This document shows positions 1 through 5,257 of a stretch of 5,257 bases of DNA, one piece after another (position 1 is the first letter of the stretch; each line of letters begins with the position of its first letter). Under the pieces are notes generated by a model. That model ran no database searches and was not told where the DNA came from. It was given only the letters and a program-made list of their open reading frames with translations. A program made the translations under genes and the position numbers. Source of the stretch: Candidatus Thorarchaeota archaeon (GTDB taxonomy: Archaea; Asgardarchaeota; Thorarchaeia; Thorarchaeales; Thorarchaeaceae). The stretch covers positions 1 through 5,257 of the forward strand of contig JAEOUL010000307.1 of assembly GCA_016839345.1 (NCBI GenBank), read 5' to 3'.

Positions 1-1
1 T

Positions 2-1168
2 CAGGTCGGATATACTGATTCCAGAGGACAGATTGTTTTTGAAGTTGACCCACGTGAAATATCGTCTTCACTCAATGTGACAGTGACGAAGCACAATCAT
101 AAGCCCTATTTGGGAGAGATGCTTGTAGCAAAGAGTCAACTTGCCGAAATATCTGTTTCCCCTGGTTCGGACTTTAGACACAAATATATCAGCGTGTCTG
201 GATTCAGCGTACGGTATGATGTCCATCTCTATATCGATGGTCATGAATATCCAGAGAGCATAAGTTCCGGATCCGAGGTTGAGATAACTGTCCCTGACGG
301 TCCATACGGCTATGTGAATGTCTGGGCTGTACAAGAAGAAGAATCTCTTATCGCAACAACCTGCTGCTTAAGACTGTCATCTGACAAGAATCCAGATCCC
401 TATATCTATTCATATGCAGATACAAGCACGTGGGATATCGTAGGAGAGGATTTGGTCTGGGACAATCCATGTATCACAATATATGATGGGACAACTCCTG
501 TACACAGGGTAACTCAGAACAGTAACTATACTGTCAATGTCACTGTATATAATAGAGGGAGCGGAGATGCTGAACGATGCAAGGTGACATTACGTTATGC
601 ACCCTTTGTTGGAGGTGTCACATGGGATATCTTGGGTACAGAAGAAGTTACGGTGCCTCTCTTTCAATCACGTAATGTTTCCTTTACATGGAAGCCGCGT
701 CTTGCAAACACAGCTTGCCTGAAAGTAGAGCTCGATGTAAACAATGAGAAAGAAGAAGACAAGATCAACAATGAGGGATACGAATGTTGGAGTGTTCTTC
801 CTATATGTAGGAAAAGAGTAAAAGATTTCGATGTAGTGAATCCAACAGAAGAGCCCGAGTATGTATTTATCAATGTGAAACAAGTGGGACACGAAGATGA
901 CATTTGGAGTGCTGCTGTAGAAGATTATACCTCTCAGCCAATAGATGGTGGTGATAGCAATCAAGCTTCAGTGGAGATTAATCCGAGTCACAGGATTGAT
1001 TCAGAAGAATCAAGACTCTTTACTGCAGAGATCTATATCGAAGCTGAATTGATTGGAGGAGTGGTCTTCGAAGGAATATGTGAGCCACCCTTTCCATGGC
1101 CATTTTTCCTTATGCTCTTTCTAATAGTCTTAATGATTGCGTTGGTATTCCATTACTCTAGGAAGTGA
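2..1168 (+). CDS. C-terminal part of a membrane-anchored cell-surface protein with Ig-like and CARDB-like domains (5' partial)
   Basis: The reading frame is open to the left edge, so the true start lies outside the window; a GTG at 77 sits in mid-domain and is not a credible start. The 388 visible residues begin with an Ig-like strand pattern (GYTDSRGQIVFEV, then LNVTVTKHNHKPYLGEM), of the kind I know from domains following the catalytic part of gingipain-like C25 peptidases. A CARDB-like domain follows at about residues 150-265 (NYTVNVTVYNRGSGDAE, then a W-x-x-LG strand and FTWKP), then another beta-rich segment (about 285-355). The end is a Pro-rich stalk (EPPFPWPFF), one membrane helix at about 366-383 and the basic tail HYSRK. 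Sequons NVT, NYT, NVT and NVS suit an exported glycoprotein. The domains are structural; a catalytic domain upstream is inference only. The TGA stop overlaps a GTG (1165-1167) that could in principle start the next frame. Confidence 0.85.
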   Translation, partial: QVGYTDSRGQIVFEVDPREISSSLNVTVTKHNHKPYLGEMLVAKSQLAEISVSPGSDFRHKYISVSGFSVRYDVHLYIDGHEYPESISSGSEVEITVPDGPYGYVNVWAVQEEESLIATTCCLRLSSDKNPDPYIYSYADTSTWDIVGEDLVWDNPCITIYDGTTPVHRVTQNSNYTVNVTVYNRGSGDAERCKVTLRYAPFVGGVTWDILGTEEVTVPLFQSRNVSFTWKPRLANTACLKVELDVNNEKEEDKINNEGYECWSVLPICRKRVKDFDVVNPTEEPEYVFINVKQVGHEDDIWSAAVEDYTSQPIDGGDSNQASVEINPSHRIDSEESRLFTAEIYIEAELIGGVVFEGICEPPFPWPFFLMLFLIVLMIALVFHYSRK

Positions 1169-1211
1169 GTTTCGGCTCATGTCCACTCGAACATAGCAGT
1201 TTGACAGATGA

Positions 1212-1220
1212 ATATTTAAG
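1212..1220 (+). promoter_or_regulatory. Candidate archaeal TATA box for the small membrane protein
   Basis: ATATTTAAG lies in the gap after the surface-protein stop. Its centre is about 57 bases before the TTG at 1273, close to the 54 bases between the much clearer TATA box and the start of the solute-binding protein gene. Transcription would begin near 1240, leaving a leader of about 30 bases that includes the AGGAGGA. The match is AT-rich but not a perfect TATA consensus, so this is inference from position. Confidence 0.4.
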
Positions 1221-1256
1221 GAACCTTACATGCACCCTACAATTAATCGCGCTACT

Positions 1257-1263
1257 AGGAGGA
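1257..1263 (+). promoter_or_regulatory. Strong Shine-Dalgarno site that decides the TTG start
   Basis: AGGAGGA is a near-perfect complement of the archaeal 16S rRNA 3' end and stands nine bases before the TTG at 1273-1275, in frame with the small membrane protein. No comparable site stands before the GTG at 1165, the farthest upstream candidate start of the same frame. This favours the shorter protein. Confidence 0.7.
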
Positions 1264-1272
1264 ATATTAAAA

Positions 1273-1464
1273 TTGACTACAGATGAGAAACTTGACAGAA
1301 TCATCAAAATATTCATACTCCTTATCTTGATGTTCGTTCTGATTTTCTGCCTTCTTCTTCTCATGGACTGGTTACTCGGAGATTTCGGGTGGGACTACAT
1401 TCCAGGAGTCGGAAAGGGGAGCGGAGATCAGGCATTCATCTCTGATTTCTTTGGAATATCTTGA
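1273..1464 (+). CDS. Small single-pass membrane protein, 63 residues, function unknown
   Basis: I do not recognise this protein. With the TTG start it begins MTTDEKLDRIIKIF, a short charged cytosol-like segment, followed by one very hydrophobic helix at about residues 11-35 rich in Leu, Ile and Phe, then a Gly- and Asp-rich tail of about 28 residues with aromatic positions (GDFGWDYIPGVGKGSG). The frame stays open back to a GTG at 1165 that overlaps the previous stop by four bases, which would give 99 residues. The added 36 residues (SFGSCPLEHSSLTDEY and on) look like chance translation, while the AGGAGGA at 1257 and a TATA-like element at 1212 support the TTG. With basic residues before the helix, the N-terminus is probably inside and the tail outside. 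It follows the surface-protein gene on the same strand, so an envelope role is possible but unproven. Confidence 0.6.
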   Translation: MTTDEKLDRIIKIFILLILMFVLIFCLLLLMDWLLGDFGWDYIPGVGKGSGDQAFISDFFGIS

Positions 1465-1473
1465 TCTGCCCTG

Positions 1474-1483
1474 AATCCGGATT
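1474..1483. repeat. Ten-base perfect palindrome in the convergent spacer
   Basis: AATCCGGATT equals its own reverse complement. It lies ten bases after the stop of the small membrane protein and about 90 bases from the stop of the TPR gene, which points toward it. It is too compact for a stable hairpin with a loop and has no T-run behind it, so a terminator is not supported; a protein-binding site or chance are both possible. The remainder of the 106-base spacer shows nothing distinctive. Confidence 0.3.
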
Positions 1484-1570
1484 AATTCATCTACCAATGG
1501 TTGGAACCTCATAACAGAGCTGAAATACCAAATGACAAAATTCGTTGGAAGAGGTTAGTGTTATAATCTT

Positions 1571-3031
1571 CTACAGTTTTAATAGTAGATTCTCCAAGTA
1601 AGGTTGCAGGAAGCTAAGATTGTCATTCTCTATGAGTGAGCGAAGCTGGGAGATGATCTCCCTTAGAAGTGCTTCATCGTCTTTCATTATGGCAAGTCTT
1701 GCTTTCAACAACAATACTTGTCCTTTGATACCAGGTAGATCCTCAGAATTCGCCTTTTCCTCCATGATTGCTAATGAAGGAAATACTCCTTCTCCTGTGT
1801 CACACGAATATACATCACACTTTGCGAGATGATGTAGAAATACAATTTGAGAAGTATATGACCAGTTATACGTCTCATAGATACTCAGTGCTTGTTCGAT
1901 ACTACTTGCCGCGAGTGAAAAATCACCACGTTCAAATTCCAAGACGCCCGTAACAAAATGAAGCCATGCAAGCTGACCTTCGTCTCCCGATTTCAGGACT
2001 GATTCCCTTGTAGTGTCAAGTATGATTTCTGCCTCAGGCAGTTTCTTCAGGAGGATGAGTGACCATATTTGGATGAGTGCACTGCGATTAAGCATGTAAG
2101 GTCTGCCCTTCAATTGTACATCAGCCATGCGAGCCCATTCTAAACCTGATTCTGGCTCACCAATTACATTGTACAAGAGAGAAAGGAAATTAGCTTCATT
2201 TCCATATTCCAAGCCTGCTCTCTCTCGAATAGAAACAGCTTGCAAGTAACGTTTGATTGCACTATCGAAATCGCCTCGTACTGCATCTAACAAACCCAGT
2301 CTTCTGATGATATCAGCAAAGTTCGCGGGAATTCCCAATGATGCGTCAACAAGCTCATATGCTTGTTCCAGTAACTTTCTTGATTCCGTGTTTCTCAAGA
2401 GACCAGCTTTTCGTATTAGAAGGTGTGCAACTCTAAGCTGGTCATCAAACTTTTCAGCTATCTCCAGTCCCTCATCGATACAGCGCATTCGACCCTCTGG
2501 GTCACCATCATGATGAGCTTGTATTGACAGGTAATCACACAATATTGTTTCATAGAAACCGAAGTCAGGATTGCTATCAATGAGTTCATGTATCCTTTCC
2601 ATGTTTGATGAATCGTACATAGTTGTTGGATAGTTTCTCATGTCAGCCTCGAATTTCATGAAGTGCATTTCGAGTGCAATCCAGTCTTCAGGGTCTGTTG
2701 CAATGATAGCATCGGCTATTTCATGAACTTTCTTCACATCTTCATAGGATTCCATAAATGATGAGGATATGAATAAATTCGGCCCAAGAATTTGATGCTC
2801 TCCATATTTCTCTCGAATCATATCAATGAGTGGGTAATCTATTGCCAGGATGGCATGATGTAAAGCAAAATAAACAACCATAATTGGGCTGTCGTTGTTG
2901 AGAACTAGCTCACCCAGTTTCTGCACAAAGTCATAGTAGTCAGCTGCCTCAATCATAATACGCTCTAATACATTCTTTGTCTCTTCATCGATGAATGGGA
3001 AGTACGTCGTTATCGTACCGATTGGATCCAT
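1571..3031 (-). CDS. Cytosolic TPR-type helical-repeat protein, 486 residues
   Basis: This soluble, almost wholly alpha-helical protein has no signal peptide or membrane helix. The N-terminal part (about residues 1-130, beginning MDPIGTITTYFPFIDEETKN) is not an obvious repeat; I recall similar N-termini in TPR proteins of Thorarchaeota, unverified. Repeat-like helix pairs of about 34-40 residues follow. The best are near 238-272 (GLLDAVRGDFDSAIKRYLQA) and 354-388 (VTGVLEFERGDFSLAASSIE), with the G-D-F-x-x-A pattern of the TPR turn and second helix; weaker units lie at about 162-195, 201-231, 279-305, 317-346 and 435-465. Such arrays form a superhelical groove for binding proteins; the partner is unknown and no catalytic motif is seen. 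The ATG start is supported by a GAGGGAG site seven bases upstream. It lies 242 bases downstream of the solute-binding protein gene on the same strand, so co-transcription is uncertain. Confidence 0.85.
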   Translation of the reverse strand: MDPIGTITTYFPFIDEETKNVLERIMIEAADYYDFVQKLGELVLNNDSPIMVVYFALHHAILAIDYPLIDMIREKYGEHQILGPNLFISSSFMESYEDVKKVHEIADAIIATDPEDWIALEMHFMKFEADMRNYPTTMYDSSNMERIHELIDSNPDFGFYETILCDYLSIQAHHDGDPEGRMRCIDEGLEIAEKFDDQLRVAHLLIRKAGLLRNTESRKLLEQAYELVDASLGIPANFADIIRRLGLLDAVRGDFDSAIKRYLQAVSIRERAGLEYGNEANFLSLLYNVIGEPESGLEWARMADVQLKGRPYMLNRSALIQIWSLILLKKLPEAEIILDTTRESVLKSGDEGQLAWLHFVTGVLEFERGDFSLAASSIEQALSIYETYNWSYTSQIVFLHHLAKCDVYSCDTGEGVFPSLAIMEEKANSEDLPGIKGQVLLLKARLAIMKDDEALLREIISQLRSLIENDNLSFLQPYLENLLLKL

Positions 3032-3038
3032 CGTGTTG

Positions 3039-3045
3039 CTCCCTC
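3039..3045 (-). promoter_or_regulatory. Shine-Dalgarno site of the TPR gene
   Basis: Read on the minus strand, GAGGGAG stands seven bases before the ATG at 3031-3029. This confirms the start. No convincing TATA box is seen further up; the AT-rich CGATTATCGATAC around 3068-3080 is the nearest weak candidate and would leave a leader of fewer than 20 bases. Confidence 0.6.
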
Positions 3046-3101
3046 AGTATCTGAATCCCTGGTGTGAAGTATCGATAATCGTATGCATTGGATAGAGAAA
3101 A

Positions 3102-3115
3102 ATCTTGTTCAAGAT
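3102..3115. promoter_or_regulatory. Short dyad upstream of the TPR gene, operator-like or part of a terminator
   Basis: ATCTTG and CAAGAT are perfect inverted halves separated by two bases. On the minus strand the right half runs into TTTTTCTC. The two-base gap is too small for a full hairpin loop, so either only four base pairs form (with a six-base loop) or the dyad is a DNA-binding site for a dimeric regulator. It lies 71-84 bases before the TPR start, a plausible place for a regulator. Function is inference. Confidence 0.25.
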
Positions 3116-3134
3116 AGCGTGCATGTGAACCAAA

Positions 3135-3233
3135 TCAGCTTGATTTCCTTCTGTTCAGAATAGTACCTCCAACAAGAAGGACTGTGATAACACCAATCTC
3201 ATTAAAATGAAAGACTGGATTAGAAAACAACAA
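3135..3233 (-). pseudogene. Possible relic of a membrane-anchored protein's coding end
   Basis: Between the solute-binding protein stop and the TPR start, one minus-strand frame runs for 32 residues between TAG (3236-3234) and TGA (3137-3135). Its end reads NEIGVITVLLVGGTILNRRK followed by SS: a hydrophobic stretch and then a basic cluster, the layout of the C-terminal anchors of the two exported proteins in this window. There is no ATG, and the two leading TTG codons have no Shine-Dalgarno site, so an active gene is unlikely. It may be the remains of another anchored protein, for example a deleted neighbour, or a chance product of AT-rich DNA. The frame differs from that of the solute-binding protein, so it is not simple readthrough. 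Confidence 0.25.
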
Positions 3234-3234
3234 C
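3203..3234 (-). terminator. T-rich region, candidate archaeal terminator of the solute-binding protein gene
   Basis: Forty to seventy bases after the TAA stop, the minus strand carries GTTGTTGTTTTC and then TTTCATTTTA. Archaeal transcripts commonly end at such T-runs without a stem-loop. There is no hairpin to strengthen the call, and the segment overlaps the possible anchor relic; the two readings compete. Confidence 0.3.
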
Positions 3235-3273
3235 TAGATTTGCATTATTTGAAGAGACATTAACACAACGCCA

Positions 3274-5112
3274 TTATCTCTTTCTAATCAAGATAACAAT
3301 GACATATACGGCAATACCAGTCCCGCCAATAGCAACAATTGTAGTAGGGATGGCAAGATCTGGTTCTGGAACCAGAATTATACCAAACCTGGGATGGTCC
3401 CAGAAATCAAGATTTGCTGAAAGGTCTACAAAGTCGTCAACCTCATAATGTGTTAACTTGAACGGGCCAGCTGTAACGTAAGGGTCTGTAGTATTCCAGA
3501 ACACATCGTCCCATAAATTCCATTCTCCGTAGTCTAGGTTCTCGTAGATGTGCTTTGGAATTATGTAATTGTATGCAAAGTGGGAGAAGTGCCAGTAGGA
3601 TTCTGATTCGAACTCAATCACAGCTCTGTAATTTGACGGGGCATATGCTGCTACAAGCTTTGTCAAACACTCTCCAGCAGGATTACCGTAGGCTGCACTC
3701 TCAAAGGCATAGTTTAGTGAATAGACTACATCCTCTGCCGTGAGAGGTGAACCATCAGTCCAATTGGCATTTGTGACAATGTCGATAGTGAATCTAGTAT
3801 GGTCACGCGGGACAGAAGAGTTGTCAGTATGAGTTTCTCTTTTCATGTCTTTAGCGAGATAGGGAACAGGACTAAGGTCAGGTCCCTTTAGGTAGAGGCT
3901 GGGCCAAAGTTGTGCCATAATTTGTGATGCTACATCATTGGCAGCAAGGTAGATGTTGAAAGTATCTGGGGCGCTGCTTACAGCAATTGTTACTGTACCA
4001 CCAGATCCATTAATCCTCCGTATATTTCTCATAGTCCATGGATTTCCTATTCCAAGAAGTGGATCTATAATATGACCTGTGAATGTATCATTTCTAAAGG
4101 CCTGTGTGTAGACGTTTTCATATACAACAACCATTGGGACATTCTCATGTAGAATCCTTTGCATGGCTGCCGCTGCTTCGTAGACTTCTTGATAATCGGC
4201 ACCTTGGAGAAGCTGATTTCGCCAAGAATCATATGTTGCATTTCTGAAGTTACATGGATTTGCAAATGGAACATCAGCTAGTTCGCCCCAGAAAAGGTAA
4301 CCGAGCCAGTCGACATCAGTATTGGGAAAGTTGTAAGCATAGTAGGCCATATCAAAGTCCTCATTGTTGTCTATCCATTCTGTCAGATTATCAAGATGGT
4401 ACCATATCGGACCTACAGTAGCATCGATGTTTAGAGCAGTTAAGGCATCGACCGCTGCTTGAGCTACGTAGGCACCAACCAGTGAAACTAGTGGAGTCAT
4501 ATTTGTGCATTGAATGCTGACATCGAAAGGCGAACCATCAGGTGCTAGTCTATAACCAGTTATTGTGTCAATGTTGAAACCAGCTTCATCTAGAATTTCA
4601 GCTCCGGTTTCAACCTGAGCTGTGTAGTAATGGTATGGTAGTTCCTCTTCTATACACCAACCATTTGCGTAAGGCACCACTGAGTCATGTTCTTGGGATT
4701 CAATTCCAAGAGGTAAAAGGTCTGATGTGACCTGTGTCTTGTTAAAAGCATATGAAAAAGCTCTCCGAAATGCACTGATGTTAAACGGATACTTGTTGCA
4801 GTTGATTGTAATGTGACCATACCCATTCCTAACAGTATTGACGAGAGAAATATCCTCTTCAATCTCAAACATTGGGACGTCGGGAGGAAGGATATAGCTG
4901 CTTAAAATTTCAGTGGAACCAACTTGGAGACTAAGAAGTCTAGAAACATAATCTTCATTGATGTTGTAGATCACCCTATCCACATACGGACCAACTTTGA
5001 GTTCATCCGGTGTTGAGGGAAGTTCCATGGCGAGTGCTGGAGATATAACCATGAATAGAAACACCACTACCAAAATAGTACCGAAAAGTCGTCGTTTACA
5101 GACTTTTCCCAT
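3274..5112 (-). CDS. Extracellular solute-binding protein, family 5 (oligopeptide/dipeptide type), with swapped halves and a C-terminal membrane anchor
   Basis: This protein would capture a peptide or similar solute outside the cell for an ABC importer. A signal peptide (residues 1-28: KRR, a hydrophobic core, ALA before the cut) is followed at 40-364 by what is normally the C-terminal half of SBP_bac_5: PYVDRVIYNINEDYVSRLL, VGSTEIL, NGYGHITINC, FRRAFSYAFNKTQV, then FDMAYYAYNF and VPMVVVYENV. At about 371-576 comes the normal N-terminal half: GGTVTIAVSSAPDTFN, WTDGSPLTAEDVVYSLNYAF, YIIPKHIYEN, TAGPFKLTHYE and SANLDFWDHPR. A Pro-rich linker leads to a helix at about 588-609 and the tail IRKR. 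Nine N-x-S/T sequons suit a glycosylated outer protein. The length (612) is near or slightly above a single family member, so both halves appear once. A GGCGGGTG site seven bases upstream and a strong TATA box support the ATG. No permease or ATPase gene is in the window, and the ligand cannot be told from sequence alone. Confidence 0.9.
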   Translation of the reverse strand: MGKVCKRRLFGTILVVVFLFMVISPALAMELPSTPDELKVGPYVDRVIYNINEDYVSRLLSLQVGSTEILSSYILPPDVPMFEIEEDISLVNTVRNGYGHITINCNKYPFNISAFRRAFSYAFNKTQVTSDLLPLGIESQEHDSVVPYANGWCIEEELPYHYYTAQVETGAEILDEAGFNIDTITGYRLAPDGSPFDVSIQCTNMTPLVSLVGAYVAQAAVDALTALNIDATVGPIWYHLDNLTEWIDNNEDFDMAYYAYNFPNTDVDWLGYLFWGELADVPFANPCNFRNATYDSWRNQLLQGADYQEVYEAAAAMQRILHENVPMVVVYENVYTQAFRNDTFTGHIIDPLLGIGNPWTMRNIRRINGSGGTVTIAVSSAPDTFNIYLAANDVASQIMAQLWPSLYLKGPDLSPVPYLAKDMKRETHTDNSSVPRDHTRFTIDIVTNANWTDGSPLTAEDVVYSLNYAFESAAYGNPAGECLTKLVAAYAPSNYRAVIEFESESYWHFSHFAYNYIIPKHIYENLDYGEWNLWDDVFWNTTDPYVTAGPFKLTHYEVDDFVDLSANLDFWDHPRFGIILVPEPDLAIPTTIVAIGGTGIAVYVIVILIRKR

Positions 5113-5119
5113 CTTCCTA

Positions 5120-5127
5120 CACCCGCC
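5120..5127 (-). promoter_or_regulatory. Shine-Dalgarno site of the solute-binding protein gene
   Basis: The minus strand reads GGCGGGTG seven bases before the ATG at 5112-5110; the GGTG core matches the archaeal consensus GGAGGTG with a poorer left side. It agrees with the start that yields a complete signal peptide. Confidence 0.5.
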
Positions 5128-5161
5128 TGAACAAATGTGGCAATAGATATTGACGTACTTC

Positions 5162-5170
5162 TATATAAAA
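5162..5170 (-). promoter_or_regulatory. Archaeal TATA box of the solute-binding protein gene
   Basis: The minus strand reads TTTTATATA followed by G, an excellent archaeal TATA box. The usual spacing of about 25 bases puts the transcription start near 5140, with a leader of about 28 bases carrying the Shine-Dalgarno site. The bases just upstream are GGG rather than a typical A-rich BRE. Beyond it, up to the window end, no coding frame can be supported on either strand. Confidence 0.75.
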
Positions 5171-5257
5171 CCCAGACCAACTTGAAAAAGAAGTGTGCGC
5201 CAGCAAGATATGGTCCGTTTAAAGTAATGGGGAGTCAGTCACGGAATCCTTATTTCA

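Follow-up and report, generated by a model that had tools for sequence, protein, structure and literature searches.

The window analyzed here, a stretch of 5,257 nucleotides from a Candidatus Thorarchaeota archaeon (assembly GCA_016839345.1, contig JAEOUL010000307.1, positions 1 to 5,257), encodes a solute-binding protein (SBP) whose two halves are swapped along the chain. The candidate gene is one minus-strand open reading frame (ORF; 5112..3274, 612 amino acids [aa]), and the span 3385–4995, in which the original prediction had placed a circularly permuted protein without naming a strand, corresponds to residues 576–40 of this frame; read directly, the plus strand over 3385–4995 contains many stops. 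We interpret the product as very probably a natural circular permutant of the family 5 (Opp/Dpp-type, PF00496) extracellular substrate-binding proteins, with an inferred role in import. The gene is composed of the following parts:

3274..5112, minus strand: whole gene, circularly permuted family 5 solute-binding protein in the order C1-C2-N, 612 aa (ORF, translation, Pfam)
5029..5112, minus strand: signal peptide region, residues 1–28, a hydrophobic helix ending in ALA, with a putative cleavage site (sequence read directly; model helix 2–23)
4012..4995, minus strand: canonical C-terminal half (C1+C2), residues 40–367, placed first (PF00496 146–362; model 39–367 on DppA 1dpe 206–507)
4003..4011, minus strand: joint between old C-terminus and old N-terminus, residues 368–370 (DppA 507 at model 367; N-terminal match from 370–371)
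3385..4002, minus strand: canonical N-terminal half, residues 371–576, placed last (PF00496 2–142; 371–572 on AppA 21–209)
3280..3345, minus strand: predicted C-terminal membrane helix and basic end, residues 590–611, at the new chain end (model helix; hydropathy)

Over the whole protein, PF00496 (SBP_bac_5) matches in two stretches with 136.9 bits, against a curated cut-off of 32.4 bits. When the segments were searched separately, residues 40–364 (window 4021–4995) matched profile positions 146–362 (E = 1.4e-21, 77.5 bits), while residues 371–576 (window 3385–4002) matched positions 2–142 (E = 4.6e-17, 62.6 bits). The two ranges are complementary, so that each half of the fold is present once, but the halves are reversed with respect to the canonical SBP_bac_5 order of N-half followed by C-half. 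These coordinates show neither the canonical order nor a match of either segment to the whole family, which confirms the swapped halves that the original prediction had described; by sequence, the protein is a permuted branch of SBP_bac_5 rather than a canonical member. The same coordinates rule out two reduced tandem copies, each a shrunken whole SBP, an explanation that is extremely improbable and for which no evidence was found: the segments match only the non-overlapping profile parts 146–362 and 2–142, and no repeated order occurs among 571 classified sequences.

Matches to proteins of known structure agree with the profile. By sequence, residues 100–333 align with 4pft 260–493, residues 442–578 with 4jsd 67–201, and residues 371–572 with AppA 21–209; the second stretch of 4pft itself (residues 440–583 on 67–202) is weak when taken alone (E = 0.021). 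The predicted structure of the whole protein has a mean confidence (predicted local distance difference test, pLDDT) of 88.4 and a predicted template modeling score (pTM) of 0.82, suggesting that the fold is intact, as had been guessed. Superposition places model residues 37–368 on AppA (1xoc) 207–520 and 39–367 on DppA (1dpe) 206–507, the latter with a root-mean-square deviation of 2.2 over 299 residues. The first- and second-half matches to AppA and DppA therefore indicate that the two halves together account for the mature protein a single time, hardly anything being lost or duplicated, and the segments are cyclically shifted within one uninterrupted ORF in an arrangement conserved in relatives, as in a natural circular permutant.

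The old C- and N-termini of family 5 binding proteins lie close together in one lobe. In the permuted chain they are fused almost seamlessly by about 3 residues, as seen from PDB sequences and superposition, with the chain opened in the loop that follows the N-terminal 'NPxYW'-like segment; this break lies at AppA ~208, where the cut had been expected. The permuted chain would carry a new signal peptide where it now begins and a new membrane anchor where it now ends. The helix predicted for the latter (590–611) has low to middling pLDDT and a hydropathy of 2.7 over 18 residues.

All segments in the order C1-C2-N (type I) stand together in open frames from 49 of the phylum's genomes (50 labels, L001 and G001 being one genome), a fetched subset of the matching genomes; a few of these frames were ended by a contig end. 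Matches to the family profile, which alone say nothing on segment order, occur in 136 of the 227 genomes searched in the phylum of Thorarchaeota AB_25, the source of the nearest named relative, with up to 5 candidates scored per genome. Among the best 120 of 461 matches in a protein search (query included), 119 follow the order C1-C2-N, the remaining one being a C2-N fragment. Named type I relatives come from Thorarchaeota, Odin-, Heimdall-, Hod-, Hermod-, and Kariarchaea, in line with the suggestion of a lineage-wide Asgard design, but the order is not confined to Asgard, as it also occurs in proteins named Bathyarchaeia (two of the three proteins P0360–P0362). The third of these, P0203, P0232, and 'bacterium SM23_57' (P0346) likewise fall outside the named groups. 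P0346 branches inside the Asgard type I sequences and may come from a misnamed bin or have been transferred. On plasmids, 140 records matched, none of them covering at least 80% of the query. Permuted and canonical members can coexist: AB_25 has four of each, and genome G211 has eight permuted genes versus one complete and two partial canonical-type matches.

Because the same order recurs in uninterrupted frames across 49 genomes, including copies that each lie within one long contig (4.94 Mb in G052, 3.16 Mb in G186), chance and misassembly are excluded. Tandem arrays of type I genes exist, which could lend some appeal to an assembly or gene-calling artefact, namely a chimeric contig or the end of one gene joined to the start of the next. 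Yet a hydrophobic N-terminus is found in 177 of 202 type I sequences and a C-terminal tail in 186 of them, and the AB_25 homologue is 75% identical to the window protein and has similar neighbors; together with the genome counts, this makes such an artefact vanishingly unlikely.

The window contains two further genes:

1571..3031, minus strand: TPR-repeat protein, 242 bp downstream of the permuted gene (ORF, Pfam; same neighbor in Thorarchaeota AB_25, by eye)
2..1168, plus strand: 3' part of a CARDB-containing secreted protein (ORF, Pfam; likeness to the AB_25 counterpart by eye)

The TPR protein may be functionally tied to the permuted protein. In AB_25, the counterpart of the CARDB protein carries a Peptidase_C25 (gingipain-type) domain, and the order of permuted SBP, TPR protein, and C25-peptidase-like protein is common to the window and AB_25 (L055), with neighbor likeness judged by eye.

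Gene neighborhoods of relatives point to import. At the AB_25 locus L060, the type I gene has two neighbors with BPD_transp_1 domains (OppC_N slightly under its cut-off) and two divergent neighbors with ABC_tran, one of which also has oligo_HPY. We sampled 20 type I loci, one per genome at its best match (second best for G210); an Opp-type permease gene lies within the fetched stretch at 9 of them, and B, C, and D types are all present at 6. At L185, L188, and L193, a second OppC-like permease gene stands near the type I gene in addition to OppB and OppC. We infer that, outside the cell, the two lobes of the window protein would close on a ligand resembling a peptide or oligosaccharide, which the protein would then pass to an OppBCDF-type ATP-binding cassette (ABC) importer, which is probably encoded elsewhere in its genome.

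Several observations weigh against this interpretation. The structural aligners are sequential and reached the first half only, so that the packing of the second half is drawn from sequence homology and the pTM of 0.82. The window and the 11.3-kb AB_25 contig bearing the nearest named relative both lack a permease gene, and 11 of the 20 sampled type I loci have none in the fetched stretch, four of them on contigs of 4–10 kb. Type I genes also form tandem arrays of 3 to 7 complete copies with no permease in the fetched stretch:

L056, 2444–16222: tandem type I array with seven complete genes and an eighth ended by the contig end
L057, 5478–11176: tandem type I array
L092, 3346–16205: tandem type I array
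L093, 3871–11981: tandem type I array

A fused polyprotein in the G218 array was considered on account of apparent shared frames of 1280–1403 aa and rejected, the DNA showing separate ordinary ORFs (L092). True fusions do occur among the 12 longest type I ORFs, five of which (L044, L045, L046, L047, and L048) combine the binding protein with a subtilase domain. In these open frames of 1653 to 2597 aa, cut by the fetched stretch or contig, the permuted binding protein comes first and the subtilase domain follows ~180 residues behind. Strict motif matching for the subtilase triad gave no hits; under looser criteria, each of the five showed I/LDTG and HGT motifs, and L044 also contains GTSQSAP.

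The fusions, the arrays (L056, L057, and L093), the absence of a permease from the window and the AB_25 contig, and the Peptidase_C25 protein encoded nearby in AB_25 would all suit a true circular permutant whose window copy acts instead in surface capture, adhesion, or sensing, or as an extracellular protease partner. We consider such a non-transport role unlikely, though far from negligible: same-order relatives directly adjoin Opp-type permease and ATPase genes, and it is common for orphan SBP genes to share an importer. A permuted family 5 protein serving an importer remains our preferred interpretation.

A second permutation, with another cut, lay outside what the window sequence alone could reveal. 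The type II order, C2-N-C1, is found in a further 20 genomes of the phylum, distinct from those above, as well as in one Bathyarchaeota protein, haloarchaea, and Alphaproteobacteria, and type II genes often lie within importer operons. Examples are Baldrarchaeia P0123, Roseomonas WP_207415789.1, and Halobaculum WP_222609512.1, the latter two being plasmid cases that importer genes adjoin. Type II shares family 5 membership and the fusion of the old termini with the window protein, but the cut falls in a different loop (AppA ~359), giving C2-N-C1 rather than C1-C2-N. VIA-align covered one part only of a predicted type II model, and in the type II protein L141, which has a single Pfam stretch, the C2 part is assigned from PDB sequences. 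With canonical, type I, and type II proteins all found, the three cyclic orders of one fold exist. M28-type peptidase genes adjoin type II genes in Roseomonas, Natrialba, and Ketogulonicigenium (L158, L169, and L173), hinting at peptide use.

Two different cuts imply at least two rearrangements. After removal of near-copies, 333 of 557 classified sequences were left, and an alignment of 144 rows was made, in which P0346 was used despite its earlier removal as a near-copy. FastTree on all 144 rows gave three changes to type I and three to type II, six in total, whereas a careful tree of 77 rows, with seven long-branch rows excluded by name, gave two and four, likewise six. A single origin was not rejected for type I (p = 0.109) or for type II (p = 0.075). 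For the permuted forms taken together, a single origin, with all of them on one side of a branch, was rejected by an approximately unbiased (AU) test (p = 0.00035). Both trees place the canonical-order sequences L078 (G173) and L080 (G168) among the type I sequences; possible explanations are reversal, a second origin, and an error in the trees.

Duplication followed by partial deletion is the textbook route to circular permutation, and the permuted forms may have arisen by tandem duplication with loss of the outer halves. The repeated N-C-N-C intermediate was found in none of the 571 classified sequences, near-copies included, the protein search itself covering lengths up to 1.75 times the query. 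As to why the chain was rotated, in the permuted form the tether no longer sits at the old C-terminus but at what used to be an internal loop. The C-terminal hydrophobic tail seen in 186 of 202 type I sequences is present in 21 of 78 canonical and 16 of 53 type II sequences, counts that depend on sampling and a simple hydropathy cut, with some frames ended by contig or stretch ends. Anchoring, as a possible reason for permutation, fits type I. More tentatively, and with clearly less than an even chance in our estimation, family 5 underwent permutation several times across Archaea and Bacteria, each time through fusion of the old termini and opening of one of two particular loops; rotation would be selected because it relocates the membrane tether or a fused protease, and the permuted form would have largely replaced the canonical one in Asgard archaea.

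Nature thus appears to rotate the chain of a common binding protein more than once, and three living cyclic orders in one family provide a rare natural experiment on the role of chain order in folding, anchoring, and importer docking. In practical terms, permuted proteins are filed under unremarkable names, 'ABC transporter substrate-binding protein' for example, and sequential structure aligners cover them in part only. Asgard archaea can have many permuted copies, and nutrient capture by these relatives of eukaryotes may rest largely on the permuted form.

In the open literature searched, we found no report of permutation in the SBP_bac_5 family, although most subscription papers lie outside that coverage and a report may be missed. 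Of two other papers, one lists the family in a table and has circular permutation among its references (PMC2588589), and in the other, a method paper, no matching passage on solute-binding proteins was found (PMC12667903). The precedent for a permuted ABC binding protein, from another cluster, is TpMglB-2 (Tp0684), a circularly permuted glucose-binding protein for which the class 'Type Ic / Cluster Bc' was proposed (PMC4990184). Its authors raise anchoring there as a possible reason for the topology, with no obvious advantage visible in the structure (PMC4990184).

The window protein shares with SBP_bac_5/cluster C proteins (DppA, OppA, AppA, and NikA) the profile and sequence family, the predicted fold of the comparable half, and relatives encoded beside OppB/C/D-type genes. 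It differs from them in its swapped halves, in new chain ends that lie in the loop at AppA ~208, and in a C-terminal membrane anchor predicted on the former middle of the chain. PF00496 is the sole Pfam family matched at E up to 1 and the best 50 PDB matches are OppA/DppA/NikA-like, which speaks against a cluster B fold, cluster B profiles and structures not having been run singly. TpMglB-2 (PMC4990184) differs in belonging to cluster B (glucose/galactose type) and in its cut, the strands of one lobe lying near the chain end rather than near the chain start as in E. coli MglB; what it has in common with the window protein is natural circular permutation of an ABC ligand-binding protein that is tethered to the membrane, as predicted for the window protein.
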